Shown: positions 15,177 to 36,230 of the stretch, piece by piece
Numbering within the stretch: the stretch's first letter is position 1
Layout: each line of letters starts with the position of its first letter
Source of the DNA: Nitrosophilus labii
Lineage (GTDB): Bacteria; Campylobacterota; Campylobacteria; Campylobacterales; Nitratiruptoraceae
Length of the DNA: 64,000 bases
Reading direction: 5' to 3'
Assembly: GCF_014466985.1 (NCBI RefSeq)
Contig: NZ_AP022826.1
Location: 1,798,001-1,862,000, forward strand
The notes under the pieces: generated by a model
The model's input: only the letters and a program-made list of their open reading frames with translations
What the model was told of the DNA's origin: nothing
Databases searched by the model: none
Position numbers and translations under genes: made by a program

Positions 15177-15390
15177 GTAAAGGTTTTCCTATATAGTATC
15201 CTTGGGAGTAGTCTACTCCTATATCTTCAACTTTTTGCTGGATATCTTTTTCGCTTACAAATTCCGCTATTGTTTTAATACCCAAATCTTTTGTAAAATG
15301 AACAATTGCCTTAACAAGTGCCTCTGATTTTTCATCTTTCATCCCAAATTTCTCATTAGATAATGATAAAATATTAAACCTACCATACAA
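15145..15390 (-). pseudogene. C-terminal fragment of an EAL-domain c-di-GMP phosphodiesterase
   Basis: The frame encodes the last part of an EAL domain: ALVKAIVHFTKDLGIKTIAE, followed by FVSEKDI and then GVDYSQGYYIGKPL, which are the closing motifs of the c-di-GMP phosphodiesterase fold. Everything upstream (the EAL motif itself, the metal-binding Asp/Asn residues, any sensor domain) is missing. Homology ends near 15345, where transposase-like remnants take over. It is therefore not expected to be active. It overlaps the opposing BON gene by 32 bases, consistent with a deletion that joined the two. Confidence 0.75.
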
Positions 15391-17440: not shown

Positions 17441-18172
17441 TTATTGTACACTCAAATTTTCAAATAGAACTTTCGAGCAACCATCCCCCTGAAGATAAAC
17501 TCCTGCTTTAAAATAGTTCCAATATCCATTCCAATAACTTACATTTTTATCGATTTTTAATTTTTTGTTTAAATAAATTCTCATACGAGAATTTTGCACT
17601 TCAATAGAAACGGTAAAAAAATCTTTTGGTCTTTTCCCAAGGTCTATTTTTTCATATAATTGCTCATTTTTCTCTCCACTTAAACGTATCACTGCCCAAA
17701 GATGGTCTCGTTTACTCTTTTGTTCTTTCCACCATGTAAGTCGCAAAAGAGGTTTATTTATAATTTTACCATTAATTCCTGTTCTATTTGAATTGGCATG
17801 AATTTGCAGGAAAGTAAACTCTTTTTTTTGATCTAAAGGAAAAAGATATAGTTTAGCACGTATAATTTTAGGATATTTTGTTTCCACTCTCCACTCATCT
17901 TTAAATCTCAATTCACTACGATTTTTTTTTCCGCACATAAAAAAGACCATAAACTTTGCATCTTGAAGGTAGAAATATCGATTTGAAAAATATCGAAACT
18001 CTCCATACTTTACACTATATCTAGGATTATAAGGACTTTTAGGAGCTTGTAGTTTAGAGTTATCCAAAACTTGCCTAAATTTTTGTAATGCATAGGGCGC
18101 ATCATGAGCAAAAATAATAGAGCTAAAAAAAATTAAAAATAACAATTTTTTAATAAAATTTAATTTTTGCAT
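17441..18172 (-). CDS. Alginate lyase, polysaccharide lyase family 7
   Basis: Exported enzyme that cleaves alginate by beta-elimination. The 243-residue protein has a signal peptide (about 1-22, ending IIFAHDA). The three conserved PL7 blocks are present: RSELRF near residue 86 (catalytic Arg), LQIHAN near 125 (catalytic Gln and His), and YFKAGVYLQG near 220 (catalytic Tyr), all on the beta-jelly-roll scaffold. It is the last gene of the alginate operon, overlapping the AlgK-like gene by 13 bases. It takes the place of the PL5 lyase AlgL of Pseudomonas, so it probably trims polymer in the periplasm or releases the matrix. Confidence 0.88.
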   Translation of the reverse strand: MQKLNFIKKLLFLIFFSSIIFAHDAPYALQKFRQVLDNSKLQAPKSPYNPRYSVKYGEFRYFSNRYFYLQDAKFMVFFMCGKKNRSELRFKDEWRVETKYPKIIRAKLYLFPLDQKKEFTFLQIHANSNRTGINGKIINKPLLRLTWWKEQKSKRDHLWAVIRLSGEKNEQLYEKIDLGKRPKDFFTVSIEVQNSRMRIYLNKKLKIDKNVSYWNGYWNYFKAGVYLQGDGCSKVLFENLSVQ

Positions 18173-20442
18173 TTTGGATAGCCTTTTGCTTTTTCATAAA
18201 TCTGTTTGATAGTTTTTGAGTCATTTATAAGGCGCATCAAATCATAAGTTAATTTCCCACTTGATGGAGTATTGCAAAGATGGGCTCTAAAAGCGTATAA
18301 AAGAGCTTTTTTTCTTGATTTTTTAGCGACAGAAGATGCATATTGCAAAAGAAGTCTCCCATTGTTTGTTAAAGAGCCTTGATGTAGATAATAATTTTTT
18401 CCGGTAATTTTATAAAGAAGCACTTTTGCTTTTGGATTGTTTAAGTCGTTCAAAAGAAGTTCCTTTGCTTTTTTTATCTCTCCCTTTTTAATAAGAAAAT
18501 TGGCGTACTGCACTTTGGCATCTTTGACATTACTTAATATCGCTTCAAAATACATATTTTTAATATTATTATCATATTTATTATTTATATTAATTTTTTC
18601 ATAAAGATTAGCAATCTTAATATACCCACCGCTATCGCCATCATTTATAGCCAACGTATAGTAATACACCGCGGCTTTAGGATCAAAATCGACCCCTTTT
18701 CCCTCTGCATAAGCATCGCCTAAAATATTTGCTGCTGCGATATCTCCTTCATGAGCATATCTATCCAACATCTGTTTTATCTCTTTAATATCTTCATCGA
18801 TGAAGCCATCAAATACTAATGAAGCGTACTCAATCTGCGCCGCTCTGTTGTTTTGAGCTTTAGCTTTTGATAACCAATATCTCTGTAAATCTATCTTACA
18901 TAACTCTTTATAGATTTGAGACAGTTTGTATTGCGCTTTATCATTGTTTTGCTGAGCATAAAAATGTAAGATAGTAGCTCCTTGAAGAAGTCTGTTTTGT
19001 CGCAAGAAAAAATCGGCAAATTTTAAATCTAAAGAACTGCTTAACGGATCGCTCTGACATGCTTTTTTTAATAATCCAATCATATCAATATTTTCTATAA
19101 GACCTTTTGAGTATAAAGTATAAAGATAGCTAATCGCATTAAGATCACCTTTTTGAGCCTCCTCAATAAGAAGCCGACGAGAACTTTCTATCTTTTTGCC
19201 CTCTAGTAGATTTTGATACGCTTCTATGACAAGTGCGGGTTTAAACTCTCTTTTAATTAAATCTTTTAAATAAGCTTTAGCACGATAATTTTTTGCGCCA
19301 ATTTTGCTATAAAACTGATAAAGTCTCCATTCTGCTTCGGTTAAATTTTGATCCATGTAGTCTAAATAAATAGATTCAGCTTTTTGAGTTTTATCAAGTT
19401 CAGGATATGTAGTATATAAACGCGCCAAAATAAGTTTTGGTTTTTGATCACTAAAACTTAGTAAAAACTTTTCTGCTTCTTGCAAACTCATTTGTGAGTA
19501 GCTTTTAGGCGTTCCTAATCTCTTTTGCTCTACATCAAATTTTATAAGCCGCAGCATAGCCTTATTGTATCCCAATCTATAAGCCTTCTGATACCAAGGA
19601 ACAATACCTTTTTGAAAGTAGAAATCCTGAAGTTTTAAAAGTGTTACTTTCTTAAGATAAAACTGATCTGGCTTTTGAAAAGATGCTGTAATGCAAGGAT
19701 TATTATAAGTTTTGAGTTTCTTTTGCATTTTTTGATACAAAATATTTCCAATCTCATAAGCAGCCTCCCCGTTACCTAAAGAGACCAAATTAGTTAATAT
19801 TTCTAATCCCTTCTTCTCTTTGTTAAACTGAAATATATACAAGCGAGCTAGTTTCAAACCTGCTTTAATATTCCCTGAAGCATAAGCTTTTTTATAAAAA
19901 TACAGTGCCCTTTTAGGATCATAAAATGGGTTTGAAGAATCATCATAAAATCGAGCTAATGAATAAGCTGCAAAGTGGTTATGACGGGCTATATCTTCAA
20001 AAGTATATAAAAACTCTTTTTGATCTGCAAAAGAATTGAGAAAATAGCGTACAAGATAGAGATGATTATCAAAATCTTTCTGACTAGAAAGATTAAAATC
20101 TCCCTTTTGCATCCAATAAAAAGCTTTTTGAAGATCACCTTGTTTTATATATAAATCTTCAAGCAAAAAGGCTGCTCTTTTTTTACCTTGATAATAGGCT
20201 TGTTTGGCAAGTTCAATAAATTTGTCATAATCTTTAATATTGTCAGTTTTATATAAAATATTTACAAGATGAATATTGGCATCAAGATGTCCAGAATCAG
20301 CCCATCGCTTCCAAATAACATAGGCTTTTTCAAAATCGCCATTATTGTAAGCTTTTCGAGCCACATCTTTATTGGCACAACCTGCAAACAAAAATATAAA
20401 TATAAGCGTGCTACCAAAGATATTTAAAATAGATTTGAGCAT
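18160..20442 (-). CDS. AlgK-like TPR/Sel1-repeat lipoprotein
   Basis: Outer-membrane lipoprotein scaffold of alginate export, probably the AlgK counterpart. The signal peptide ends in the lipobox LFAGC, giving a mature N-terminal Cys. The rest is a chain of Sel1/TPR-like helix pairs (for example NILGDAYAEGKGVDFDPKAA). At about 760 residues it is much longer than Pseudomonas AlgK (about 475). ATG 20442 is chosen over the frame from 20475 because GGATGG is correctly spaced and the lipobox signal is then of normal length. It overlaps the AlgE-like gene by 32 bases. Sequence similarity is only of the repeat type, so the AlgK role rests mainly on gene context. Confidence 0.75.
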   Translation of the reverse strand: MLKSILNIFGSTLIFIFLFAGCANKDVARKAYNNGDFEKAYVIWKRWADSGHLDANIHLVNILYKTDNIKDYDKFIELAKQAYYQGKKRAAFLLEDLYIKQGDLQKAFYWMQKGDFNLSSQKDFDNHLYLVRYFLNSFADQKEFLYTFEDIARHNHFAAYSLARFYDDSSNPFYDPKRALYFYKKAYASGNIKAGLKLARLYIFQFNKEKKGLEILTNLVSLGNGEAAYEIGNILYQKMQKKLKTYNNPCITASFQKPDQFYLKKVTLLKLQDFYFQKGIVPWYQKAYRLGYNKAMLRLIKFDVEQKRLGTPKSYSQMSLQEAEKFLLSFSDQKPKLILARLYTTYPELDKTQKAESIYLDYMDQNLTEAEWRLYQFYSKIGAKNYRAKAYLKDLIKREFKPALVIEAYQNLLEGKKIESSRRLLIEEAQKGDLNAISYLYTLYSKGLIENIDMIGLLKKACQSDPLSSSLDLKFADFFLRQNRLLQGATILHFYAQQNNDKAQYKLSQIYKELCKIDLQRYWLSKAKAQNNRAAQIEYASLVFDGFIDEDIKEIKQMLDRYAHEGDIAAANILGDAYAEGKGVDFDPKAAVYYYTLAINDGDSGGYIKIANLYEKININNKYDNNIKNMYFEAILSNVKDAKVQYANFLIKKGEIKKAKELLLNDLNNPKAKVLLYKITGKNYYLHQGSLTNNGRLLLQYASSVAKKSRKKALLYAFRAHLCNTPSSGKLTYDLMRLINDSKTIKQIYEKAKGYPKCKN

Positions 20443-22651
20443 TAAAACCATCCTTTTTCGATGCTTCGCTATCAAAAGCCTCTCCTCCTAAAAAGTATCC
20501 CAAAACAAATCTCCAGTATGTATTTTCAATAATATCGTAATGGAGAATAAAATCTATCTCATTACCCAAGCTTTTCTTCTCCCCGTTAGGATTAAAGGTA
20601 TAGAAAGTAGCAAAGTATTGGGAAGAAGAGGGTTTGTCTTGCATAAAATTATGATATGCAATAATGGCTGTTTTATTATCATTTCCCCATAAGTGATGCA
20701 TCAAATACAAAGAGCTTATCCAGATATTTGACAATTCAGGATTGAAAAAAGAGCCGTAATGTCTAAAAGAGATATCTTTGCTAAGATAATTGGTTCGATT
20801 ATTGGTAAAAGATGGCTGTCTATAAAGATTATCTCCTCCGGAACCATAAGCGATTGAGGCTGCAATTGCGCTATCATATCTATAAAAAGTATATTTACCT
20901 CCAATCTCAAATCCAAGCCCTTTAACAGTTCTCTCTTCCTGCATAGGAGCTGGAGTATAGTTTATTGTTTTATATACACCTTCAGCATGTGCTATATCTA
21001 ACCAATACGCTATTTCATCTAAATTTGTTCGTTTTACTTTTCCTTGCATTCTGACGCCAATCCAATCCACATTTTTGAGATTGCCGTCTTCTTGAATATA
21101 AAACCCCTCGATAGTATTATCTTTATAATACTCATAACTTATATGTCCAAACAAAAAATTAGTATTTTTTAGATTAGCTAAAGTCTCATCCTCGCCAGTA
21201 TATAATACAATACTATCGGTTAAACGGGTCCCTACATAAAACTCATAAAGCAAAAGATCATGTTTGTTGAAAAATCCTACAGTATCTAAATATGTTTTAA
21301 AATACCAACTACGATCGTCTTTAAGATATTTTCTACCTATTAAAAAGTTAGATTGATTATCAAATAGCCCGTCACTGCTTATAAACAGTTCCTTGACATC
21401 TAATTTTGTTTCTTTTCTATCTTTGGAAATATATAATAAACCTCTATCATCAGTAAAAAAGTACCACTTAGGAAAAAAATAGTATTTGTATTTTAAACCA
21501 GTAGTAATCGTAAATGATTGATTGTCTCTTTTGTTTCCGTTTATATCAATTTGTCCCTCATTAATATTTAGTGTTGCGGTGGAATAAAACAGTAGTTTTT
21601 CTTTGGATTTAAACAGCATCTTATTTTGTTCAGTTTGTAAAAATAGTCTTTGGGGAGATTTTGGAACCTCGATGTTTGGAACTGTTTTCTGTAATGAAGT
21701 ATCCACAAAATTCTCTACAGCTTCAAGATCTATATCTTCCCACGGAAAGCTTTTTTTGTCATCCATACACTTGTCCCTACAAGCAACAAGATTCTCCTCT
21801 ATATCAGTTGAACACCTACTCTCTATATCTTCACTAACAGATACTTTTTTGTAAAAAGATGGTTTTAGCACACTTTTTTTGTTTTTTTGCTGATGGGATA
21901 TAGTTAAGTTTTGATCTATTTTTTTTTCTGTTTTTTTAAGAATAGGCCCCAACTCCTCTTCTTCAACAACTTCTTGTTTTATAGGGATAATTATCGCCGT
22001 TGGAAAATCTTTTTTAAATCTTAACCACTCAGATTTTGCTTTGGTAGCTGACTCAAAACATCCATATCTAGCTATATAGAACCCATTTTCCTTAACAACT
22101 TTTACTCCTAAAGGAAGTTTGGTTTTTTTTATAGGTTTTTTACTCTCAAAAAGTTCAATAGTAAAACATGAATTTGTTTTGCTGTAGCTTGTTTGAGCGA
22201 TTTTTTTTGAAGTAGTAATTGTTTTTAATTTATCTTTAGCAACAATGGTTTTAAAAGGTATACTAGGTTCAACCTCTTCAACAGCTTCAAACTCTTTTAA
22301 ATGTCTCTTTTTTTTATCAGATTGCAAATATAAATTTTTTTTGAATTTTTTAAGAGAGGTACCATTACCTTTAACACTATCTTGAAATCTAAATCTATAT
22401 GTAGAAACGATATAGGCTTGAGGAAATTTCTGTTTTAAGCGTTTAAGAGCCGGCTTAGCCTCCTTAACTCTTTCAAAACATCCGTAACGTAAAGTATATA
22501 TTCCATTTATATGCATAACTTTCGCTTCTTTAGGAAAGGAGCTTTGATATGCAATAGGTTTTACGCTACTTAGAAGCTGAACAGAATAACAAGTATCTTT
22601 ACTATAAAGAAGTGTTACAAAAAATAGAGAAAAAAAGATTTTATTTCTCAT
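20411..22651 (-). CDS. AlgE-like alginate export porin with two SPOR-like modules
   Basis: Probable outer-membrane beta-barrel that lets alginate out of the cell. The 746 residues comprise a signal peptide (about 1-17), a first SPOR-like module (about 21-83, with C21 and C58), a second (about 162-224, with C162 and C198), a Cys/acidic linker (C280, C291, C295), and a barrel from about 350. The barrel ends in an aromatic residue (FKYLW), typical for BAM insertion, and contains GNEIDFILHYDI and WRFVLGYFLGGEAF, which resemble the closing strands of alginate-export barrels. Pseudomonas AlgE (about 490 residues) has no such N-terminal extension. It lies between algG and algK as in known alginate operons. 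Confidence 0.8.
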   Translation of the reverse strand: MRNKIFFSLFFVTLLYSKDTCYSVQLLSSVKPIAYQSSFPKEAKVMHINGIYTLRYGCFERVKEAKPALKRLKQKFPQAYIVSTYRFRFQDSVKGNGTSLKKFKKNLYLQSDKKKRHLKEFEAVEEVEPSIPFKTIVAKDKLKTITTSKKIAQTSYSKTNSCFTIELFESKKPIKKTKLPLGVKVVKENGFYIARYGCFESATKAKSEWLRFKKDFPTAIIIPIKQEVVEEEELGPILKKTEKKIDQNLTISHQQKNKKSVLKPSFYKKVSVSEDIESRCSTDIEENLVACRDKCMDDKKSFPWEDIDLEAVENFVDTSLQKTVPNIEVPKSPQRLFLQTEQNKMLFKSKEKLLFYSTATLNINEGQIDINGNKRDNQSFTITTGLKYKYYFFPKWYFFTDDRGLLYISKDRKETKLDVKELFISSDGLFDNQSNFLIGRKYLKDDRSWYFKTYLDTVGFFNKHDLLLYEFYVGTRLTDSIVLYTGEDETLANLKNTNFLFGHISYEYYKDNTIEGFYIQEDGNLKNVDWIGVRMQGKVKRTNLDEIAYWLDIAHAEGVYKTINYTPAPMQEERTVKGLGFEIGGKYTFYRYDSAIAASIAYGSGGDNLYRQPSFTNNRTNYLSKDISFRHYGSFFNPELSNIWISSLYLMHHLWGNDNKTAIIAYHNFMQDKPSSSQYFATFYTFNPNGEKKSLGNEIDFILHYDIIENTYWRFVLGYFLGGEAFDSEASKKDGFNAQIYFKYLW

Positions 22652-25292
22652 AATCGTGCCCTAATAAAAGATTTTTGACTACTGTTTCATACGAAATCTT
22701 TCTAAAACGATAGCGGTTGATATCCTCAAGATATTTTTTGATTTCAGGTTCAACCTGTTTTAAAATATCTTTTTTCTTCATGCGTATAAAAGATAATCCT
22801 TGCTGACGTGCTCTTTGCTGATTTTTGAGATAGTCTTTACAAAGCTTATATTTTCTTGCAAGTTTATAGACTCTGCTATAATATCTGTTAAAGCCTGCTT
22901 TTATTGCATTTACCTCTTTGATATGTTTTTTGAAGTAGATTTTAACAGGAGTTGTAAATATGGTATATTGTTTGCTGATACTCTTACAATAATCTAAAAA
23001 TGTTGATGCCTTAGCCATTTTGAACTTATACTGAAAAACTTTCCAAGCGGCTAAAACTTTTCTTTTTTTATAAAGACTATTTTTACAAACTGAGCAGTGT
23101 TCATACTTTTTCTGATCAAAAAGTTGACCTTTTTGCATTCGAGCTTTTGCTAATAAAAAAGCCTCTTCAATCAGATAAACTCCATTTGGAATAAAAAATC
23201 GAAGATACTCTAATCTATGAAAATCCAAAACATTGTCACTTAAAATCGCATCTTCTATAATATAACTTATCCCTTCAATAATTTTCTCTCTATCATCAAA
23301 CCCTTTCTTGCGACTCTCCGTTAGATAGTAAAATCCCAAAAAGGTTAAGGCACCTTTTGAGAAAATTGAACTGGCTCTAAGAAGTTCATATTCGGTTAAC
23401 TCTTTAGATTCCCGATTTATATAAAGACCTGCTAGATGCGTGCCAAAATAGTCATTAGGAGCATTTGCTATATCTTTATATATCTTTTTAGCAACTTTAT
23501 AGGCGTATGGATTTAACTCTAAAAGATCGCTACTGCGCGCATGAAATGGAAACCCTAACCCATAAAGAGTAAAAGAGCCTCGATTTTGAATAATCCGATC
23601 ATAAAAAAAGTTAAGATCACCTCCTATCCCAAAATAGTTTGGGATTTTATTTTTATATATCTTAACAGCCGCTCCATTTTTGATCATTATGTTTGTATTG
23701 TAATTGGATTCGATAATATTATTTGAAATAACAGCAGATGATGCTTTAAAGTAGGGATCTCGACGCATATCTCTTCCGGGAATATCATCGATATTTTTCT
23801 CTATTATCTCTATACCGTTTTTTCCGTTGTAGCGAATAGAGTTGTTGCGAATGCTTACTCTTAAGGAATTTCTTACCATTACTCCGTTGATATTGTTACC
23901 AACAACTGTATTGTTAGCTATCAAAATATTTTTGCTCTCTTGGGAAGATATACCCATAAATCCATTAGCTACGGTTAGATTATTGTAAATGATATTATTA
24001 TTTGATAATCTATCCACCATCAACCCATTTGAGCGGTTATTTAACGCAATGTTATCCACCATATATGAGTACTCGACTCCTCTTGAAACTATAAAACCAT
24101 GCGCCACTTCGGAATTCATTGCTATATTCTTAGCTATAACCAAATTTATGGAGTAATCATGGGGATCAAAATTGTATATTTGATTATTGTATGTAAAATT
24201 ACCTAAATAGACCGCATCTTTCGCTCCGTTTGTATAAAAACCCATAGTTGAATTAAGAATATCATTTCCAATATAAGCCCCCGTAGGTGCATTCATGTGG
24301 CTTAAAAAGTAATACATAGCCTGAGAATATGGAATGAAGTCATTTTTTTTGGGAGAAAGCAAACCTATCCCGAAAGTAGCAGATGTACTGTGAAAACCTA
24401 GTCCATCGAAAATATTATTGACAAAGTAGCTTTTTGAGCCAGAAAGACCTAAAAAGTATGGTCTAGGTTTCTCATAGTTGATATAGAGAATCTTCTCTTT
24501 TGGTATATTTTCTCTTGGACAATAGCGATCTCTTTTTGTATCCCAAGTTACAAATCTACTGTTGGCAAGATAAAGCTCTCCATAATAAACTATAAAAATA
24601 GGATTAGGTAAAGTTTGCAATCTAACCGTTTTGTTTTTGATAACTAGTTTCGCCGTAGATGATACAAAAATAGAGATATTAATCTCGTATGTTTTATTAT
24701 CTATTTTTTTTATCAAATTTGGATTATTGAGTCTTTTATAGATGTACTCCAAGCTGTAAACACCATCGTAAAGAACCAAAATTTTTCGATTTTTATGGTT
24801 ATTAAACATATAAAAAGAGTAAAGATTGATAGAAGGGATAAAGTTGGCTTTATCAAGATCATATAGTTCAATACCTTCTCCATAAAGGTGTTGGGGGAAC
24901 TGTCGTAAAACATTATGTGGAGTATATTTTCTATAGATTTTTTGAAGATACTTTTTCGCTCTTGTTAAAGAGAGAAAAGAGTTTTGGGGAAATATAACAT
25001 AAGGAATCCCATCATTAACTTTATGATAAACAATCTTTGGATCTTTAAAATTAAAATTTAGTGTCTCTAAAACCTTTTTCGCATCCTTCTCTTTTTTGTA
25101 ACATCCCACGTATGCGAGATTTGCTTTACGAAAAAGAGGAGGTTTTATAAAAAGATTGCAACGCTCCTTGGAATATGGGTTATAAAAATAGTTTTCACTT
25201 ACTGGAGTAGAGCTATCGACTTTGGTCAAAATTGAGTAGCAATACCCCGCAAAAAGTTTTATAGATATTACAAGCAACACAAAAGCTTTCAT
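22641..25292 (-). CDS. AlgG-like mannuronan C5-epimerase
   Basis: Periplasmic enzyme that converts mannuronate to guluronate within the polymer and helps guide it to the porin. The 883-residue protein has a signal peptide (MKAFVLLVISIKLFAGY). An N-terminal Cys-containing SPOR-like segment (about 18-100) is followed by a right-handed beta-helix of NNxI-type rungs (about 270-560). The AlgG catalytic motif DPHD lies at residues 376-379 with HGFIVSRG shortly after. A C-terminal helical domain of about 280 residues (600-883) has no counterpart in Pseudomonas AlgG (about 540 residues). It starts 9 bases after alg44 and overlaps the porin gene by 11 bases. Confidence 0.85.
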   Translation of the reverse strand: MKAFVLLVISIKLFAGYCYSILTKVDSSTPVSENYFYNPYSKERCNLFIKPPLFRKANLAYVGCYKKEKDAKKVLETLNFNFKDPKIVYHKVNDGIPYVIFPQNSFLSLTRAKKYLQKIYRKYTPHNVLRQFPQHLYGEGIELYDLDKANFIPSINLYSFYMFNNHKNRKILVLYDGVYSLEYIYKRLNNPNLIKKIDNKTYEINISIFVSSTAKLVIKNKTVRLQTLPNPIFIVYYGELYLANSRFVTWDTKRDRYCPRENIPKEKILYINYEKPRPYFLGLSGSKSYFVNNIFDGLGFHSTSATFGIGLLSPKKNDFIPYSQAMYYFLSHMNAPTGAYIGNDILNSTMGFYTNGAKDAVYLGNFTYNNQIYNFDPHDYSINLVIAKNIAMNSEVAHGFIVSRGVEYSYMVDNIALNNRSNGLMVDRLSNNNIIYNNLTVANGFMGISSQESKNILIANNTVVGNNINGVMVRNSLRVSIRNNSIRYNGKNGIEIIEKNIDDIPGRDMRRDPYFKASSAVISNNIIESNYNTNIMIKNGAAVKIYKNKIPNYFGIGGDLNFFYDRIIQNRGSFTLYGLGFPFHARSSDLLELNPYAYKVAKKIYKDIANAPNDYFGTHLAGLYINRESKELTEYELLRASSIFSKGALTFLGFYYLTESRKKGFDDREKIIEGISYIIEDAILSDNVLDFHRLEYLRFFIPNGVYLIEEAFLLAKARMQKGQLFDQKKYEHCSVCKNSLYKKRKVLAAWKVFQYKFKMAKASTFLDYCKSISKQYTIFTTPVKIYFKKHIKEVNAIKAGFNRYYSRVYKLARKYKLCKDYLKNQQRARQQGLSFIRMKKKDILKQVEPEIKKYLEDINRYRFRKISYETVVKNLLLGHDYEK

Positions 25293-25301
25293 TGCTTTAT
25301 C

Positions 25302-26396
25302 CTATTGCCAAAAGGTATCTATTGTTACAAATACCGTCGTATTAATCAATGAAATATCTAAAGGTTTTAGTGGCTCCAAATAGAGCGTATCGTAATCTCT
25401 AGGACGATTATAGATATTTGCCAATATTTTCGCTTTTTCTAGATCAACTGGCTGCGCTGGCTCTATTTTAATGATCCTTGCCTGAAAAACTTGTTCATCT
25501 TGTGTGCGTACATCTGCTATATAGCCAACTTTAACTTTTTTAAAAAACTTATGTTCCATTTTTGCTACAATATATGGAAGTGTATCTTTGTGTAAAACCG
25601 TAATAATGGGTTCTGCAGTATTTCGAAACTCATTTTCCAAAACATTGACTTTTAAAACTGTCCCACTTAAAGGAGAAACTATCGGTTGCATCTCTCCGTC
25701 AATAAACCTAGCTATAGCAATAGTTTCGTTTATATCTATATTGTCTCCTTTTTGCAAATCCCTCGTAAAATGGATATAGGAAAGAAAAGGAGCACGTATA
25801 ACGGTAATGTTCCCATCTACAAAAGCATTAGTAGTTTGCACGACAAAAGTGCGGTTGTATGCTATATAGCCCAAAAAAGAGAGTAAAATAAAGATAACTG
25901 TATAAATCAAAATCAGTATTTTATCTGCTCTTTTTCTGTTAAGTTTCTTCTCCTCCTTTTTAGGATATGTTATCTGTCTTGTAACCGCATAAAGAATATC
26001 CTCTTTAGTAATAATATCACCGTTAATATATGCTGTGATAATTTGATTTAAAATTGAGATTTGATAATCCTCTAGATTATGAAATTTTGCTCCTAATAAA
26101 GGATAGTGTTCTCCCACAGGCTTTTTACCTGTACAGATAAAATCTAAATTGAGATTGTCTATAACAGTTTCAAAGGTGTCGTACTTAAAAATCATTTTTC
26201 CTTTGCGAGACGGCTTTTGACAAAACTCCTTTGGAGCATTTTTTATGGCAAGTCCACCTAACGACCAGTTGTCAACTATATAGATTTTTCCGTCTATTTC
26301 AACTTTTGCCGGAATTCTATAACGAGCAAACTGCCTTGTCACCTCAGCCTCGTGCATAATCTGTTTTGCCAATTTCTCTTTTTTTTCGGTGTTCAT
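25302..26396 (-). CDS. alg44: Alg44-like PilZ-domain membrane protein
   Basis: Co-polymerase of alginate synthesis and receptor for c-di-GMP. The N-terminal PilZ domain has the RxxxR motif (R21-QFA-R25) and the (D/N)xSxxG motif (NWSLGG at 43-48) needed to bind c-di-GMP. A single membrane helix follows at about 166-188, then a periplasmic HlyD/membrane-fusion-like beta domain (PLSGTVLKVNVLENE). The 364-residue length is close to Pseudomonas Alg44 (389). It overlaps alg8 by 4 bases (ATGA), matching the invariant alg8-alg44 order. It implies that alginate production responds to c-di-GMP. Confidence 0.93.
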   Translation of the reverse strand: MNTEKKEKLAKQIMHEAEVTRQFARYRIPAKVEIDGKIYIVDNWSLGGLAIKNAPKEFCQKPSRKGKMIFKYDTFETVIDNLNLDFICTGKKPVGEHYPLLGAKFHNLEDYQISILNQIITAYINGDIITKEDILYAVTRQITYPKKEEKKLNRKRADKILILIYTVIFILLSFLGYIAYNRTFVVQTTNAFVDGNITVIRAPFLSYIHFTRDLQKGDNIDINETIAIARFIDGEMQPIVSPLSGTVLKVNVLENEFRNTAEPIITVLHKDTLPYIVAKMEHKFFKKVKVGYIADVRTQDEQVFQARIIKIEPAQPVDLEKAKILANIYNRPRDYDTLYLEPLKPLDISLINTTVFVTIDTFWQ

Positions 26397-27958: not shown

Positions 27959-27966
27959 ACTCACCC

Positions 27967-29277
27967 TTACCAACAGATTCCTTGATAGTTTTCTTTACTT
28001 TTTTTATCAACAATTCTCATAAGATCAACAATATATTTGTGAAAATATCTATTGGGTATATCTCGAAACTCCTTAGAGTTATTACCTAAAATTATTATAT
28101 CAGCTTTTTCTATTGTTTCTTCTAAATTTTCATTAAGTCTTATATTGATATGTTGCAAATCACTCTCCAAAACCGTTTTCAATGCTCCCTCTTTTTTTGC
28201 TAGTAAAACGTTTTTATCATAAATGCTCAATTCATACCCTTTTCCTATCAACATCTCAGCAAGCGCTAATTGCGGAGATTCGCGCAAATCATCTGTGTCA
28301 GCTTTAAAGCTTATTCCCAAAAATGCGACTTTTTTGGAGGGCAAAGGTTGAATAAAATCGAGATAAACTCTTTTTATCTGCCACTCATTACTTGGCATAA
28401 TATGTTCCATCATCGGGATAGTTATATCTAACTCCTTGGCTTTATATGTGATCGCTCTTAAGTCTTTCGGTAAACATGAGCCTCCAAAAGCAAATCCGGG
28501 TTTGAGATAATATGAAGAGATATTTAGTTTTCTGTCTTCACAAAAAATTCGCATAACTTCATGGGAATCGATTTCTAATTCTTTGCAAATCATCCCTATT
28601 TCATTGGCAAATGTTATTTTAGCCGCGTGCCAACTATTGGAAGCATATTTGATCATCTCAGCCACTTCTATTTGGGTTTCAAATAAAGGAGCGTCTAAAA
28701 AAGAGTAAAGTTGTTTGAAGATTTCAAAAACTTTTAAGTCTTCTGCACCGACAACGGTAAATGGAGGGTGATAAAAATCCTCTATTGCCGAACTTTCACG
28801 TAAAAATTCAGGATTAGAAGCATATCCAAAATCTACGCCATGTTTTTTTCCAGAAATCTTTTCAATTAAAGAGATAACTACATCTTTGCCGGTTTTTGGC
28901 AAGACAGTACTACGCATAGTGACAACATGATAACTATTTTTGCTTTGTAGCTCTTTTCCTATAGCTACGGCGGTATCTTGAATATAGCGTAAATCCAAAG
29001 AGCCATTTTTTTGACTCGGTGTTCCTACGGCAATTATCGTAAGATCACTATTGGCGATAGCATAATGTAAATCGGTAGTAGCTTTTAGTCTGTTTGCCTC
29101 TACGCCCTCTTTTATAAGCTCTCCCAACCCTTTTTCTACAATAGGAGATTTTCCTTTGTTGATAAGTTCTACCTTTACGCTATCTACATCAACTCCAATA
29201 ACAGTATGTCCCTCTTTGGCAAACGCAGCTGAACAGACACTGCCTACATATCCCAAACCGATCACACTTATTCGCAT
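27967..29277 (-). CDS. algD: GDP-mannose 6-dehydrogenase AlgD
   Basis: NAD-dependent four-electron oxidation of GDP-mannose to GDP-mannuronate, the committed step of alginate synthesis. At 436 residues it has the length of Pseudomonas AlgD. It has the dinucleotide-binding start ISVIGLGYVGSVCSAAF, GKSPIVEKGLGELI, the catalytic cysteine in FAFGGSCLPKDLRAITY, and FKADTDDLRESPQLALAEML. These blocks match AlgD better than UDP-glucose dehydrogenases. It overlaps the phosphatase gene upstream by 10 bases. Confidence 0.95.
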   Translation of the reverse strand: MRISVIGLGYVGSVCSAAFAKEGHTVIGVDVDSVKVELINKGKSPIVEKGLGELIKEGVEANRLKATTDLHYAIANSDLTIIAVGTPSQKNGSLDLRYIQDTAVAIGKELQSKNSYHVVTMRSTVLPKTGKDVVISLIEKISGKKHGVDFGYASNPEFLRESSAIEDFYHPPFTVVGAEDLKVFEIFKQLYSFLDAPLFETQIEVAEMIKYASNSWHAAKITFANEIGMICKELEIDSHEVMRIFCEDRKLNISSYYLKPGFAFGGSCLPKDLRAITYKAKELDITIPMMEHIMPSNEWQIKRVYLDFIQPLPSKKVAFLGISFKADTDDLRESPQLALAEMLIGKGYELSIYDKNVLLAKKEGALKTVLESDLQHINIRLNENLEETIEKADIIILGNNSKEFRDIPNRYFHKYIVDLMRIVDKKSKENYQGICW

Positions 29278-30029
29278 CTATTTTTCCCCTTTTTTAAAAA
29301 ATCTAAAACTCTTTTAACAAAAGATAACTTCTGTTCAACAACAATAAAACTAACATTGTCAGAGAGTTTTTTTCTTTTTTTGATTCTTTCAAATATTTTT
29401 AAAATATTTGAGCTCATAACTATCTCTTGAATTTCGTTTTCAAATTCTCTCCAAAATCCATCGGAACAAATCAGCAATTTCTCACCTTTTTCTATAGCTG
29501 TTGACGAAAAAAAAATTTCAAACTCCTCTATACCAATACCTCCCGATATTGACGAAGTAAGAATATTGCTATTTTGATGTTTTAATCCTATCGACTGTAG
29601 TTCATTGACTAATGTATGATCTTTTGTCAATACTTCTATATTTTGTGGAGAAACTTTATACACTCGACAATCTCCTACATTAAATATCAAAGCTTCATTT
29701 TTTTTCCAAACAATACCTGCTAAAGCTGTTGCTAGAGAAATAATCTCTTTGGCAGCTATCTCCTCTAGTTCTCTCTTTGCCTCTATCAATGTTGCAACAA
29801 TCATTTGCCTATTACTAGGCTTTTTTTGTTTTAAACATTCTAACACTGTTCGCGCTGCTTTCATTCCAGCTTTATGTCCTCCTAATCCATCTGCTACTAC
29901 AGTCAAGAAGTGATCATTTTTTATCTCTTTTTGTGAACATTTTTGGACAATCTCATCATCGATTAAAAGCAAATCTTCGTTTTTTCTACGAACACTTCCT
30001 AATTCACAGCAGTAAGAAACATATAACAC
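29268..30029 (-). CDS. PP2C-family protein serine/threonine phosphatase
   Basis: Metal-dependent phosphatase expected to reverse the action of the neighbouring kinase. The 253-residue protein has the canonical motifs: RRKNEDLLLID near residue 15, VVADGLGGHKAG near 47, NVGDCRVY near 116, LLICSDGFWRE near 187 and LSDNVSFIVV near 224. All metal-binding Asp residues are present. It resembles the Stp1/PppA group encoded beside Hanks-type kinases. It lies 9 bases after the kinase gene and overlaps algD by 10 bases, so it is locked into the alginate operon. Confidence 0.92.
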   Translation of the reverse strand: MLYVSYCCELGSVRRKNEDLLLIDDEIVQKCSQKEIKNDHFLTVVADGLGGHKAGMKAARTVLECLKQKKPSNRQMIVATLIEAKRELEEIAAKEIISLATALAGIVWKKNEALIFNVGDCRVYKVSPQNIEVLTKDHTLVNELQSIGLKHQNSNILTSSISGGIGIEEFEIFFSSTAIEKGEKLLICSDGFWREFENEIQEIVMSSNILKIFERIKKRKKLSDNVSFIVVEQKLSFVKRVLDFLKKGKNRCE

Positions 30030-30038
30030 TTTCTATCC

Positions 30039-33000
30039 TTAAAAGAGTTTTGCCAAAATTTTACCAACAATAAAGCCAAATTTACGATAACGTTTAGCTT
30101 TAGAAACAGAAATATCTGCAGCTTTCCACTCTTTAGCCTCTTCAATATCAAAACCGGCCTTCTTCCACTCTCTAGCCTCTTCCAAACTAAATCCTTGGTC
30201 TATCCAAGCTAAAAGTTCATCAATACTAAAACCATCATCCACTAAGTTTTTGGCAACATTTGGCAAGAACCCTATATTTTTCCACTCCAAAACTGATCTA
30301 ACATCAAACCCGTACTCAATCCACTTTTTTGCTTCATTGGGCAAAAAACCCTCTTTTTTCCACCTAATAGCTTTTTGCGATTCAAAACCTAACTCATGCC
30401 ACCTTTTTGCTTCTTGCAACGAAAAACCTTTTGTAAACCAACTTAAAAACTCTTTAACCCTAAAACCCTCCTCTTTTATTTTTTGAATTACATCAAAAAG
30501 ATTAGATGACCAAACCTGTAATTTGCCATTAAGTCCTCCGGCAACAAGAAGGTCTCCTTTTGGATTATAAGCTAACGACAACATAGCGTCTCTATTCAAA
30601 GTAATAGAGCTGATCTTTTTTTGCTCATAAAGATTCCAAAGCTCAATAGTTTTGCCTTGTTGAATAGCCAAAACACCATCTTGCATCGGAACAGTTTTCA
30701 TAAACTCTGTATAATCAAAATTATCGGAAAGTTCAGTAACTTTAGACCTATTTTCTATATCCCAAATGGTTATATCTCCCTCTTCACCAGCAACAGCAAC
30801 AACCGTACCGCTTGGATTAAAAGCAACAGATTTGATACTTGTATTATGCTGAAAAAGAGTAATTTTCTCTTTACTTTGATAATCCCACAATATAACACTC
30901 CCATCTTCAGAACCACTAGCCAAAATGTTTTTTAATGGATGAAAAGTGACCATCCGTACACTAGCCTTATGTTCATCAAAAAAAGCTTTTGCCTCTTTTG
31001 TACGAAGCTCCCAAACTATAACATTACCACCCTCTGTTCCACAGGCAAGCAAAGTACCGTTGTGATTAAAATCAATACTATTAATATAGCTTTTGCTATC
31101 TTTTAAGACGTAAAATGTCTGTTTTGTTTCTATGTTCCATAGGCGTATCTGCATGTCCCAACTACCGCTAGCGAGTATATTTTCAACTGGACTAAAAGCT
31201 ACGCACGTTACATAACTTTGATGTCCTTCCAATCTTGCAAGATGCTTTTTTGACGACACATCCCAAAGAGATACTGTTTTATCCTTGCTTGCACTTGCTA
31301 AGATCTCACCATCTTTGCTAAATGCAACAGATTGAACACAATCTGTATGCAATTCCAAAATAGCAAACTCTTGATCAGCTTTCTCGCTTAATAATCTAAT
31401 CGTATAGTCATTGCCGCCGCAAGCAAGCATATCCCCTTGAGGACTGTATCTTATACTTTTAATGGCTCCATTTAGAACTTTTTTATTCTCTAAAAGAGTA
31501 TAAAAACCTCTCTTTAACTGCTTAATTTCATCAAAAACCAAACCCTCTTTTTGTGCGATTTTAGCTTCTTCAGGTTTTACATTTATCTCTTTTTTAAATA
31601 AAAGAGCTTCATGCAACCGAAAACCGGCATCTCTCCACTCTTTTGCTTCTTCTAGATCAAACCCTGCTTCTTGCCAGTTTCTAGCGCTTGTCTCATCGAA
31701 ATTCTCCAAACCTATTTGCTTACTATTTTGTACCTGGTAATTTTCTCTTTTATTTAAAAATCGATCTATCTCTTCTGCACCCCAACGCTTAGAGCTATCT
31801 TTTTGGAGAAGTCCTTCAAGAACCTCTTTAATATCTTGTTCGCTTGTTTCGATAGGTATGGGCTCATGTCCAGCTATCTTAGATAGCAAGCTATTAAATT
31901 CAACTCCTTCAAAAGGTTCTTTGCCAAAATATAACAGATATAAGATCATTCCAAGTGACCAGTAATCACTCTTTTTGTTATATTCGTTTGAGAAAGTTTC
32001 TGGAGCAGAGTATTTATATGTACCTTTAAAATTTTTAGTAAAAACAGTTGACTCCTCAATACTTTTAGCAATACCAAAATCGCAAAGTACTACTTCAAAC
32101 CAATCTCTAAGAAGAATATTGGATGGTTTCAGATCTCGGTGATAAATATTGTGACTGTGCAAAACTTTTAAAGCTTCGTTTACCTGTTTTAGAAAATCAT
32201 AGAAGATCTCTTTTGAAGCAAAACGATCTTTATACTCTTTATTGTGTAAAAGTTCTGAAATACTACCTAGTTTACAATATTCATATATTTCAAAAAAACT
32301 TCCTTGCGTCTCTCCAAAATCTATAAGTCTAACCAGATGCTGAGGATGCTCTACGGTAAGTTGTTTGATATTTTTTACTAAATCAAGATCTGGAAAGATA
32401 TCTTTGCGATATATTTTAAGCACATACTGGGTATCATCTTTTTGTACCAAATATGTATCAGACTCTCCCCCTAAAAAAAGATGTTTTATGATCTCATACC
32501 CCTCTATTTGCCGGGGAGTATGTACTAGAGACTCAGCTCTTGCCATAACTATCGTCTTATTAACAGTTTGCCCATCTATAGATGGCTCTTTTTCTGTTTT
32601 ATCGCAAATATAATTTTCTTTGATCGTTTTATCACTCTCTAAACCATACTGCACCGTCAAAAAGATTTTCTGCGATAAGGAAATAACGTCATTATGTTTT
32701 AAAAGAAAATGTTTGTTGGGAGATAGCTTTTGAGCGTTTAGATAAGTCCCGTTAGTACTTCCTAGATCTTGAATGTACCATTGATCATTTTTTTTAAAAA
32801 TCTTTGCATGTCTTCTTGAGATAGCTTTATCCACAAAGTAAGATTTCGCGATCCCTTCTCTTCCTAAAATAGTAGGTTTAATTATTGTAATAGTAAATCC
32901 GTCTCCAAACAATACCAAAGGGATCTCAACTAATTCATCTTCAGTTAAAGAGACGGAAGAGATGTCGGTTGAACAATTTTTACACAAAAGAGAATTTGGC

Positions 33001-33041
33001 TCATTTTTTGTTTTACAAACAGGACAGATTTTATACGCCAT
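30039..33041 (-). CDS. Zinc ribbon-FHA-Ser/Thr kinase-WD40 protein
   Basis: A 1000-residue cytoplasmic regulatory kinase. In order: zinc ribbon (CPVC and CKNC, residues 6-23); FHA domain (about 50-130, GREG, SRRHAK, DLGSTNGTYLN); Hanks-type kinase (about 180-440) with VLKIYRKD lysine, HRDLKPSN, CDFGIAKS and APETF, all catalytic residues kept though the glycine loop is poor; short EAxxW-type helical repeats; about seven WD40 repeats (about 545-820, LASGSWDMQIRLW and similar); and a C-terminal array of about eight repeats of type EAxxWxxxGF. ATG 33041 is chosen over the frame from 33077 because GGAAGG precedes it and it then starts just after the upstream gene. Its substrate is not known; alginate export proteins are candidates. 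Confidence 0.88.
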   Translation of the reverse strand: MAYKICPVCKTKNEPNSLLCKNCSTDISSVSLTEDELVEIPLVLFGDGFTITIIKPTILGREGIAKSYFVDKAISRRHAKIFKKNDQWYIQDLGSTNGTYLNAQKLSPNKHFLLKHNDVISLSQKIFLTVQYGLESDKTIKENYICDKTEKEPSIDGQTVNKTIVMARAESLVHTPRQIEGYEIIKHLFLGGESDTYLVQKDDTQYVLKIYRKDIFPDLDLVKNIKQLTVEHPQHLVRLIDFGETQGSFFEIYEYCKLGSISELLHNKEYKDRFASKEIFYDFLKQVNEALKVLHSHNIYHRDLKPSNILLRDWFEVVLCDFGIAKSIEESTVFTKNFKGTYKYSAPETFSNEYNKKSDYWSLGMILYLLYFGKEPFEGVEFNSLLSKIAGHEPIPIETSEQDIKEVLEGLLQKDSSKRWGAEEIDRFLNKRENYQVQNSKQIGLENFDETSARNWQEAGFDLEEAKEWRDAGFRLHEALLFKKEINVKPEEAKIAQKEGLVFDEIKQLKRGFYTLLENKKVLNGAIKSIRYSPQGDMLACGGNDYTIRLLSEKADQEFAILELHTDCVQSVAFSKDGEILASASKDKTVSLWDVSSKKHLARLEGHQSYVTCVAFSPVENILASGSWDMQIRLWNIETKQTFYVLKDSKSYINSIDFNHNGTLLACGTEGGNVIVWELRTKEAKAFFDEHKASVRMVTFHPLKNILASGSEDGSVILWDYQSKEKITLFQHNTSIKSVAFNPSGTVVAVAGEEGDITIWDIENRSKVTELSDNFDYTEFMKTVPMQDGVLAIQQGKTIELWNLYEQKKISSITLNRDAMLSLAYNPKGDLLVAGGLNGKLQVWSSNLFDVIQKIKEEGFRVKEFLSWFTKGFSLQEAKRWHELGFESQKAIRWKKEGFLPNEAKKWIEYGFDVRSVLEWKNIGFLPNVAKNLVDDGFSIDELLAWIDQGFSLEEAREWKKAGFDIEEAKEWKAADISVSKAKRYRKFGFIVGKILAKLF

Positions 33042-33049
33042 ACCCTTCC

Positions 33050-34804
33050 TTACGTCATATAACCGCTTAATCGCCATCGGCTATCTTGTAATTCTATCTT
33101 TTCTATTAATATAGTTTGACCACCTTTTATATCCAATCGCAAGAATAGATCTGATAAAGGATTAATAAAGATATTTTGCAAACATTTTTCGATCTTTATC
33201 ATATCTAAAGAGTTGCAATGTTTAATACACTCCTCTTCAATTCTCTTTCTAGATATATCATTCATCATTATCGTAATTTTTTGGAAACTTTTTATATTCT
33301 CTATAGTTTTATCGATCATTTTTTGGATCCACCATTTTATATCCTCTTCCTTAAGCAAATCAAATATTATTAATTGAAGATTGTCAAGAAGAGATTTTTG
33401 GAATTTTTGCTCTAAAATTCGAAATACTTCATTATGATAGTCTTTTTTGTTATCATTAGAAAATGATTCATCATCGAACAATAAAGATGTATTTGTCGTT
33501 AATATAATAACCGCTTCGCCAAAATAGAGTATCTCTTGCTCATCGATATTCACTTTTCCTTTTGTAACAATTTGATTAATAAAGTCAAGTATATCAGAAG
33601 GAGCAGCATCGAAATTTTCAAACATCACAATACTGTTGGGATTTTCTTGAATAATTCTTATAAGCTTTGATTCTGTTAGCAGTAATCTATCAAGAGCCTT
33701 ATCTTTGTTTATATACTCTAAAAGATCAAAATGAAAAAAGAGAGATTCTGTTTGAAAAAGATTTTTTGCCAAACTTTGTCCTAGTTTTTTGTGTATCTGT
33801 TCATATGGTCCTGCAAACAAAAGTGTAAGACGAGGTCTGTCTATGTTTTCTGGATTTTCTAATCGATTGAGATTGAAATAAGCACTTTGAATGGCCTTAA
33901 CTATCTTTTCTATTGCTTTTTCTTGACCAAAAATCTCTTTGTTCAATTTTTCTTGCAATTTCATCAGTTGTTTTTTTCCTATTTTACTCCATAAAATTTC
34001 TGAAGAGCCAATCTTATATTCTTGAATTGCTTCAAAAATCTTATTTATTTTAGAACGTTTTTGTTTTGCAAGAATAAAGCTATGCAAAATATCTTTACCA
34101 TAAAAAGAGTTTGTATAAAGAGATAAAAGTTCTAAAAGCTCATTTTGTCTCTCTGGCAATAATGTCTTATACTCTTCAAAAGTAACTATAATCGACTGGA
34201 TAATCTTTTTTCTAGTTTCGATATCGGGCTTTGGGATAGAAATGGTTCTGATTTTGCTATTGTTGTAGTATAAAGGAAAATCTTTACTTTTGTCTAAAAT
34301 ATAAATTAAAAGATTAAATCTTGATATGTCTCCAACTTTAATCGGATAAGCGTTAAGAGAGTATCGAAAAAAGGTATATAAAAACTTATCTATCTCTTCT
34401 TGTGGATATAGTTCTTTAATTCGAGAGCAATGGTTAACTATAAGAGCGCTATTTGTATCGTTTGCTTGCAGAAGATTTTCGACTTTCCAGATAGCCTCGG
34501 CTAAAGAGTTAGTTTGTATCATATCTTTATTGTCAAAATCTATACCTAAGACTTGTAACTGTTCTTTATCACCGCTTAAAAGTGAAAAACCAAATAAAGG
34601 CTCAAACATAACAATATTCTCATACCCTTCTTGACTTAAAATAGTAGCCAGATAGTTTGGTAAAGACAGGGTAGTATAACCGTATTTTTCATCATAATAG
34701 GGATAAAAATCATATATATTTCCATCAATCAAAAATTGTTGGTGAACTGAAGTAAAAGCAAGAAGTTCTTTTGCCCAATTTGGAAGATTTTCTTTTTTAA
34801 CCAT
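33050..34804 (-). CDS. ClpB/ClpA-like AAA protein with degenerate ATP site
   Basis: A 584-residue cytoplasmic protein. The second half (about 285-560) follows the ClpB second-ATPase layout: IFGQEKAIEKIVKAIQSAYF, then a position equivalent to Walker A reading LLFAGPYEQIHKKLG, then a Walker B position reading IVMFENFDAA, and a sensor-like VIILTTNT. The GKT/GKS of Walker A is absent and the Walker B acids are altered, so ATP hydrolysis is doubtful. The first half is an unrecognised AAA-like domain. ATG 34804 (AAAGGTGG upstream) is preferred over the longer frame; it overlaps algA by 8 bases. It may be a scaffold or pseudo-ATPase partner of the kinase. Confidence 0.7.
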   Translation of the reverse strand: MVKKENLPNWAKELLAFTSVHQQFLIDGNIYDFYPYYDEKYGYTTLSLPNYLATILSQEGYENIVMFEPLFGFSLLSGDKEQLQVLGIDFDNKDMIQTNSLAEAIWKVENLLQANDTNSALIVNHCSRIKELYPQEEIDKFLYTFFRYSLNAYPIKVGDISRFNLLIYILDKSKDFPLYYNNSKIRTISIPKPDIETRKKIIQSIIVTFEEYKTLLPERQNELLELLSLYTNSFYGKDILHSFILAKQKRSKINKIFEAIQEYKIGSSEILWSKIGKKQLMKLQEKLNKEIFGQEKAIEKIVKAIQSAYFNLNRLENPENIDRPRLTLLFAGPYEQIHKKLGQSLAKNLFQTESLFFHFDLLEYINKDKALDRLLLTESKLIRIIQENPNSIVMFENFDAAPSDILDFINQIVTKGKVNIDEQEILYFGEAVIILTTNTSLLFDDESFSNDNKKDYHNEVFRILEQKFQKSLLDNLQLIIFDLLKEEDIKWWIQKMIDKTIENIKSFQKITIMMNDISRKRIEEECIKHCNSLDMIKIEKCLQNIFINPLSDLFLRLDIKGGQTILIEKIELQDSRWRLSGYMT

Positions 34805-36230
34805 TATCCACCTTTGATTTTTCGATCCTGCCGTAATCATCGGCATATCGAATGATATCATCTTCATCCAAATACTCTCCTACCTGAACTTCAACAATTT
34901 CAAGCGCTACTTTCCCAGGATTAGAGAGTCTATGTTTTGCTCCTATAGGAATATATATTGATTCATTGCTTCTAAGCAAAAATTCCTTATCGTCAATTTG
35001 TACCAAAGCTGTCCCTTTAACTACAATCCAGTGTTCGCTCCTGTGAAGATGTTTTTGTAAAGAGAGGCGCTTACCTGGTCTAACCACCAACGTTTTTACT
35101 TTAAATCGTTTATCTTCGTGAAGATTGGTAAATTTTCCCCAAGGCTTGTAAACTGTCCTTCCGTAACGAACTAACTCTGGATTTTTTTCTTTTAATTTTT
35201 TTACAATTTCACGAACCTTTTGAGAAGAACCCTTTTTCCCTATCAAAAGAGCAGAAGGAGTATCTACTATTATCAAATCGTTTACCTCGTTTAAAGCTAT
35301 AGTTTTGTAACGCCCAAATATAAAGTTATTATGAGAGTTATAAGAGATAAGATTTTTTTGTTTAGTATTTTGATCTTCATCCTTCTCAAAAACTTCGTCT
35401 AAACTATCGAAACTACCAATATCGTTCCATTCGATAACACTTTTTACTACTTTGATATTTGAGCTTTTTTCCATAACCGCATAATCTACACTAATATCTG
35501 GTATATCAATCATATTGTCACTTTTCAATCTAATAAAATCATCTTTTTGAACATTTTCAAAAGCCGCTTTCGACTTTTCATAAATTTCAGGAGCATGTCG
35601 TTGTAACTCTTCTAAATAAAGAGAGGCTTTAAACATAAACATACCAGAGTTCCATAAAAACATCGATGTACTTTTTGGATCGCTATTGGCTTGTAGATAA
35701 TTTTTTGCGGTTTGCAAATCAGGTTTTTCTTTAAAACTTTTAACGTCTAAAACAGTAGCCTCATCTTTGCTTACTTGTATGTATCCATATCCGGTCTCAG
35801 GCTTAATAGGTATTATGCCAAAGGTAACCAAAGAGCCTTTTTTTGCTGCTTCAAGACCATATTTAATCATCTTTGCATAATTATGATCGGCTTTTATTAA
35901 ATGATCGCTTGGAGTAACAAATAAAATATCTTCTTCTGCTAAAAATGCACCAAAAGCGATAGCAGCCGCAGTGTTACGTCCAATAGCTTCCACTACAAAA
36001 TACGGATGACATCTATTTAGATGTAACTCTTGTGTTTGATCTTGAGCAAGAAAATATTGAGCCGCATTAGAAACCACAATCGTCTTATCGCTAAAGGGTC
36101 TATTACGTAAAAGGGTTAATTGATAAAGCGATCTGTTTTCAAACATTTTTAAAAACTGTTTAGGCATATTTTCTCTACTAATTGGCCAAAGTCTTGTTCC
36201 ACTACCTCCACATAAGATAATATTCGTCAT
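34797..36230 (-). CDS. algA: Mannose-1-phosphate guanylyltransferase / mannose-6-phosphate isomerase AlgA
   Basis: Bifunctional enzyme: isomerises fructose-6-phosphate to mannose-6-phosphate and forms GDP-mannose from mannose-1-phosphate. The 477-residue protein has the nucleotidyltransferase signature GGSGTRLWPISRENMPKQF at 8-26 and FVTPSDHLI. The C-terminal cupin isomerase domain contains PGKRLSLQKHLHRSEHW and YIPIGAKHRL. Length and layout match AlgA/ManC. The phosphomannomutase needed between its two reactions (AlgC) is not in the window. It is the first gene of the operon; upstream lies an AT-rich region with a direct repeat. Confidence 0.95.
   Translation of the reverse strand: MTNIILCGGSGTRLWPISRENMPKQFLKMFENRSLYQLTLLRNRPFSDKTIVVSNAAQYFLAQDQTQELHLNRCHPYFVVEAIGRNTAAAIAFGAFLAEEDILFVTPSDHLIKADHNYAKMIKYGLEAAKKGSLVTFGIIPIKPETGYGYIQVSKDEATVLDVKSFKEKPDLQTAKNYLQANSDPKSTSMFLWNSGMFMFKASLYLEELQRHAPEIYEKSKAAFENVQKDDFIRLKSDNMIDIPDISVDYAVMEKSSNIKVVKSVIEWNDIGSFDSLDEVFEKDEDQNTKQKNLISYNSHNNFIFGRYKTIALNEVNDLIIVDTPSALLIGKKGSSQKVREIVKKLKEKNPELVRYGRTVYKPWGKFTNLHEDKRFKVKTLVVRPGKRLSLQKHLHRSEHWIVVKGTALVQIDDKEFLLRSNESIYIPIGAKHRLSNPGKVALEIVEVQVGEYLDEDDIIRYADDYGRIEKSKVDNG

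Follow-up and report, generated by a model that had tools for sequence, protein, structure and literature searches.

An intact, divergent alginate operon in Nitrosophilus labii, rearranged and slimmed in comparison to the Pseudomonas set

Known alginate operons and the N. labii gene cluster

The alginate operon of Pseudomonas aeruginosa is composed of 12 genes, and one of its products, AlgX, is essential for the polymer, its loss leaving fragments only (PMC3815931). In Pseudomonas and Azotobacter the gene order is algD-8-44-K-E-G-X-L-I-J-F-A. The operon of Nitrosophilus labii described here is similar to it in that a single operon holds AlgA, AlgD, Alg8, Alg44 with a PilZ receptor for c-di-GMP, AlgG, AlgE, an AlgK-like protein and an alginate lyase of the periplasmic type, and differs from it in that algA is the first gene and not the last, that algX, algI, algJ, algF and algL are lacking, with a PL7 enzyme in place of the PL5 lyase AlgL, that AlgK, AlgG and AlgE are enlarged, AlgE with SPOR-type domains, and that genes for a probable pseudo-AAA protein, a Ser/Thr kinase (STK) and a PP2C phosphatase are inserted. 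According to a survey from 2020, alginate operons that are atypical and have lost parts occur in "deep sea dwelling bacteria" (PMC7112194), and in one comparison alg8 was recovered only from deep-sea hydrothermal metagenomes (PMC9426474).

The window, that is, the whole stretch of 64,000 nucleotides that was analyzed, carries the cluster at 17441-36230 on the minus strand. A preliminary description of this DNA had claimed a complete alginate operon of eleven same-strand, tightly spaced genes in a Campylobacterota host. The host assignment is supported, and the list of open reading frames agrees in coordinates and count, with neighboring genes overlapping or sitting no more than 9 bases apart and all 11 frames open. 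The eight roles it named (AlgA, AlgD, Alg8, Alg44, AlgG, AlgE, AlgK and PL7 lyase) are each supported by profile, structure-sequence and motif tests, AlgK only weakly, but it left the three remaining genes unnamed and missed the SPOR domains. "Complete" is only partly correct, since in relation to the Pseudomonas set AlgX, AlgI/J/F and AlgL are absent. The genes are, in order of transcription:

34797..36230, minus strand: algA, first gene, bifunctional mannose-6-phosphate isomerase / GDP-mannose pyrophosphorylase (TIGR01479, 2.2e-161; PF01050, 6e-49); 81% identical to the SB155-2 orthologue
33050..34867, minus strand: AAA+-like protein (ClpB-like C-half), start likely at ~34804 (PF07724, 7e-11; ClpB model, 2.3e-23 over 298-590)
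30039..33077, minus strand: FHA-Ser/Thr kinase-WD40 propeller protein, 1012 aa (PF00069, 3.2e-41; PF00400, seven matches); 67% identical to SB155-2
29268..30029, minus strand: PP2C Ser/Thr phosphatase, Stp1-like, metal motifs ADGLGG and SDG (NF033484, 2.3e-29; PF13672, 2.4e-11)
27967..29277, minus strand: algD, GDP-mannose 6-dehydrogenase, catalytic Cys in GGSCLPKD (PDB 1mfz, 1.5e-146 over 1-436)
26393..27973, minus strand: alg8, membrane GT2 polymannuronate synthase, DGD 193-195, TGDDK 304-308 (PF13641, 3.3e-29); 55-90% identity in six loci of the phylum
25302..26396, minus strand: alg44, PilZ (c-di-GMP)-TM-HlyD-like co-polymerase, R21xxxR25, NWSLGG (4rt0, Alg44 PilZ, 7e-5)
22641..25292, minus strand: algG, mannuronan C5-epimerase, beta-helix ~164-550, DPHD 376-379 (NF038177, 1.9e-37; 4nk6, 4.1e-33; Foldseek 4ozy, 5.4e-16)
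20411..22651, minus strand: algE, outer-membrane alginate porin after two SPOR-type domains, ~20-85 and 160-226 (4afk/3rbh/4xnk, ~6e-4 over 529-703)
18160..20475, minus strand: algK-like, enlarged Sel1/TPR lipoprotein, lipobox FAGC, start likely at ~20442 (PF08238, 4.4e-6; NF038194, 0.0036)
17441..18172, minus strand: PL7 alginate lyase replacing AlgL, RSELR, QIH, YFKAGVY, Cys80 and Cys232 (PF08787, 1.3e-33; 7w13, 6.6e-32)

With likelier internal ATG starts at ~34804 and ~20442, the two longest overlaps shrink from 70 to ~8 nt (AAA/AlgA) and from 65 to ~32 nt (AlgK/AlgE). The nearest relative of N. labii is genome G009, which we infer to be Nitratiruptor sp. SB155-2, and it carries the same 11 genes in identical order with 52-90% identity. 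Because this full order is kept there, and because an eight-gene core is found in three further genomes (G036, G083 and G408), the run is not a chance arrangement.

Precursor supply, polymerization and export

From the sequence identity and intact motifs observed, we infer the polymer, the assembly of the complex and its regulation: the locus very probably serves synthase-dependent secretion of alginate in a chemolithoautotroph that is thermophilic and lives at vents, gated by c-di-GMP, making an unacetylated M/G polymer and subject to an added phospho-control. One competing explanation is that alginate-like parts were reused for some other synthase-dependent polymer, either cellulose-like, PNAG-like or another uronan, which we regard as improbable. 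In its favor, Alg8 is by Pfam a generic GT2 enzyme with no solved homologue, and AlgK and AlgE are strongly diverged. The evidence against it comes first from the precursor genes. AlgD matches P. aeruginosa AlgD (1mfz) over its full length by a wide margin over the best match to UDP-glucose dehydrogenase (UGD, 3.5e-71), is 52% identical to it and keeps Cys268, Lys210, Asn252 and other active-site positions, which marks it as a GDP-mannose dehydrogenase and not a UGD. Both AlgA and AlgD, the enzymes of GDP-mannuronate supply, are therefore encoded in the operon, and phosphomannomutase (PMM)-family genes are found elsewhere in the N. labii genome. In an unrooted comparison of 10 sequences, the AlgD of Campylobacterota stands apart from that of Pseudomonas and the alphaproteobacteria.

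The polymerase pair, Alg8 and the PilZ co-polymerase Alg44, was likewise found. Alg8 carries the GT2 DxD and TGDDK motifs. Compared with the PDB as a single sequence it gave no hit, and its profile matched no chain at E<=1, the lack of a match to BcsA or another synthase speaking against a different polymer. Its relatives outside the phylum are plasmid GT2 proteins with 35-40% identity (~38% for those discussed here), and the two neighborhoods examined, in Loktanella and Rhizobium, are both alginate operons, which also argues against a different polymer. Around the Loktanella gene are those for AlgD, AlgA, a beta-helix protein, MBOAT, AlgF and a member of the alginate lyase family, and the neighbors of the Rhizobium gene match AlgD, Alg44, AlgG and AlgK. 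These plasmid operons share with N. labii the clustering of AlgD, Alg8, Alg44, AlgG and AlgK-type genes, but both keep ALGX-family genes, and the Loktanella one the MBOAT, AlgF and lyase family genes in addition; both lie on large plasmids (L023, L024) and are mostly without such annotation. The identity of Alg8 is thus supported by Pfam and by comparison with these plasmid GT2 relatives. An Alg8-like GT2 protein in genome G384 (28% identity) was rejected as an alginate gene, since no other alg gene adjoins it. For Alg44, the PilZ and HlyD models match 6 of 6 orthologues, and the motif alignment showed that RxxxR and NxSxxG are kept; c-di-GMP is contacted in Alg44 by RxxxR and R21 (PMC8461298). 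The closest solved relatives of the N. labii protein are Alg44 PilZ structures. A placement of Alg8 and Alg44 with cellulose or another polymer system, which the preliminary description had named as a refutation of its reading, did not emerge from these searches.

The profile searches which that description proposed for AlgG, AlgE, AlgK, Alg44 and PL7 returned matches for all, weak in the case of AlgK. An alignment of AlgG with the solved periplasmic epimerase covers 380 residues and shows that DPHD is kept, and AlgG was also the top Foldseek match of its predicted fold; this mannuronan C5-epimerase again speaks against another polymer. It has a helical C-terminal extension of ~330 aa and, as judged by eye and with no Pfam support, a SPOR-like segment at its N-terminus, and in two relatives Alg44 ends in a similar segment, also seen by eye and with no Pfam support. 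The outer-membrane porin was recognized as AlgE from the three top PDB matches, which are all AlgE chains (4afk, 5.7e-4), and from PF13372 Alginate_exp (6.7e-22), which matched 4 of the 5 aligned orthologues but not the N. labii protein. Pfam detects a SPOR domain (PF05036, 6e-5) on AlgE. The AlphaFold model of AlgE, with a mean pLDDT of 43, is too poor for a fold search, and can be used only as a hint of two SPOR-like beta-beta-alpha-beta blocks in the DSSP pattern (pLDDT ~55-71). The AlgK-like lipoprotein, of 771 aa with a GCA invariant in the alignment, matches AlgK by profile (7ula_B, 1.1e-9; 3e4b, 7.7e-8), but other Sel1 proteins score better; Sel1 repeats are promiscuous, and taken alone this protein would be only a weak candidate for AlgK.

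The lyase, the missing parts and the inserted cassette

The operon lyase is 73% identical to its SB155-2 counterpart (L009:2561-3292), likewise encoded last in the operon, which has QIH and cysteines at 80 and 232 just as the N. labii protein does, and in four further orthologues neither cysteine varies. The N. labii enzyme has the three catalytic motifs and the Cys80-Cys232 pair of the NitAly type. NitAly of SB155-2 is a PL7 lyase with QIH, a preference for polyM and an optimum of 70 C (PMC6165035), and its heat stability depends on Cys80-Cys232 (PMC8618178). Because QIH and cysteines at exactly positions 80 and 232 fit these published features, the SB155-2 operon lyase is almost certainly NitAly. 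The preliminary description knew of no characterized alginate operon in Campylobacterota, which needs to be qualified, since NitAly, the probable lyase of the same operon, was reportedly characterized biochemically in 2016 and since the 2020 survey mentions atypical deep-sea operons. As regards the whole operon or its polymer, no paper was found in our literature search, outside of which most subscription papers lay, and we know of no report of a polymer isolated from such an operon.

PL7 lyases are known mostly from alginate eaters and NitAly was described as a lyase, so that the locus could also be taken to serve the consumption of external alginate by its lyase and epimerase. We consider this hardly credible, since AlgA, AlgD, Alg8, Alg44 and AlgK are synthesis and export genes, genes for an oligo-lyase, a DEH reductase or uptake were not recognized within the operon, and EPR55-1, another strain in the family, did not use any organic carbon source (PMC7728183). 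The presence of a PL7 alginate lyase, whose orthologue is probably an assayed alginate lyase, also argues against a polymer other than alginate. P. aeruginosa AlgL prefers polyM and clears periplasmic polymer, protecting the cells (PMC8829089), and by analogy a polyM-preferring lyase within a synthesis operon would fit an AlgL-like clearing role. NitAly would thereby gain a likely physiological role in polymer quality control rather than in feeding.

In the six carrier genomes the ALGX (PF16822) and MBOAT (PF03062) models gave no match, whereas the ALGX model, as a positive control, matched in both alginate-bearing plasmids; no AlgF gene is present within the operon, and the AlgL PL5 model (PF05426) had no match in the N. 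labii genome. Because AlgX, AlgI, AlgJ and AlgF are absent, we predict an unacetylated polymer, and the scaffold has to be a different one; presumably the enlarged AlgK has taken over the role of AlgX together with the extension of AlgG and the SPOR-type domains. That a protein essential in P. aeruginosa is absent here counts against the alginate reading. A tentative proposal, which we hold to be less likely than not, is an AlgX-independent, non-acetylating machine in which the SPOR-type domains of AlgE, AlgG and Alg44 would bind either the polymer or peptidoglycan, in the latter case tethering the envelope-spanning complex, and in which the kinase, phosphatase and pseudo-AAA protein would gate synthesis together with c-di-GMP.

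These last three genes separate algA from algD in only two genomes, both Nitratiruptoraceae, and the PL7 gene holds that place elsewhere. In the AAA+-like protein the Walker A and B motifs of Clp/Hsp100 enzymes are degenerate (GPYEQIHKKL and FENFDAA, versus GATGVGKT and FDEIEKA in an intact distant homologue), and it is probably a pseudo-ATPase or scaffold; among 298 genomes of the phylum a close homologue is found only in SB155-2. A distant homologue in G209 does not represent the same cassette, as its Walker A is intact and it has no kinase or phosphatase neighbor. The kinase keeps HRDLKPSN and DFGIAK, and its FHA domain was assigned by motif (GREG, SRRH). Judging by position and by co-occurrence in the two genomes, the cassette probably adds control by Ser/Thr phosphorylation. 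A 562-aa frame with both PP2C and Ser/Thr kinase domains is located elsewhere in the N. labii genome (L042, G000:C1 ~526-527.5 kb).

Distribution, history and proposed working of the operon

Strain HRV44, "Nitratiruptor labii", was placed in the new genus Nitrosophilus (PMC7728183). Alg8 orthologues with at least 55% identity were found in 6 of 397 genomes of the phylum, N. labii included, and on one MAG contig. Within the family only 1 of 21 relatives, several of which are incomplete MAGs, has an Alg8 orthologue, and no genus-mate has one. The genomes G036, G083 and G408, with partial copies in G358 and the MAG contig, share the eight core proteins and likewise lack ALGX and MBOAT matches, but their order is AlgA-PL7-AlgD-Alg8-Alg44-AlgG-AlgE-AlgK, uninterrupted by genes for a kinase, a phosphatase or an AAA protein, and some of their Alg44 proteins have a SPOR-like tail. 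Identity between N. labii and G036 is 63% for Alg8 and 75% for ribosomal proteins.

The SB155-2 operon occupies another chromosomal position, and its flanks differ from those in HRV44, though a nearby ribosomal region is syntenic. On its algA side there is an intact GGDEF-EAL gene, and directly after its lyase gene there is a 445-aa ORF with no Pfam match (L009:1214-2551, minus strand), absent from the window, instead of an insertion sequence. Just beyond that operon lies a second exopolysaccharide-like locus resembling PNAG genes (L017:4795-9907; GT2, polysaccharide deacetylase, TPR-like and barrel-like proteins). The patchy occurrence, together with the lack of synteny, suggests that the operon was transferred between vent Campylobacterota, with loss as the alternative. 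A recent arrival could not be read from base composition, the GC content of the operon (32.7%, versus 34-35% in the flanks) being uninformative.

Beside the 3' end of the N. labii operon, a Mutator/IS256-family transposase gene (16028-17194, plus strand) directly follows the lyase gene, and the C-terminal remnant of an EAL gene for a c-di-GMP phosphodiesterase (15172-15357, minus strand; Pfam EAL, 2.7e-13) is 50% identical to the C-terminus of the GGDEF-EAL protein near algA in SB155-2. Together with the patchy presence, the transposase and the remnant would suit a decaying, non-functional acquisition. This is very unlikely, as 11 of 11 frames are open, the motifs of AlgD, AlgG, PL7, kinase and PP2C are intact, and identity to SB155-2 is much the same for Alg8 (90%) and AlgD (84%) as for ribosomal proteins (87%), which suggests continued constraint.

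If the locus works as an alginate operon, AlgA and a phosphomannomutase encoded elsewhere would supply GDP-mannose, which AlgD would oxidize to GDP-mannuronate, and c-di-GMP bound to the PilZ domain of Alg44 would cause Alg8 to polymerize it. In the periplasm AlgG would convert some of the residues to guluronate, and the PL7 lyase would clear or trim stray polymannuronate like Pseudomonas AlgL. In Nitratiruptoraceae the FHA-STK-WD40 kinase, its PP2C phosphatase and the pseudo-AAA scaffold would add control by Ser/Thr phosphorylation.

The operon is of interest for its missing as well as its added parts. As a natural machine free of AlgX and AlgI/J/F it should help to establish which components are truly required in the periplasm, and it suggests a thermostable source of enzymes for non-acetylated alginate. 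At the level of genome sequence, it extends alginate biosynthesis to the hydrogen-oxidizing vent Campylobacterota.
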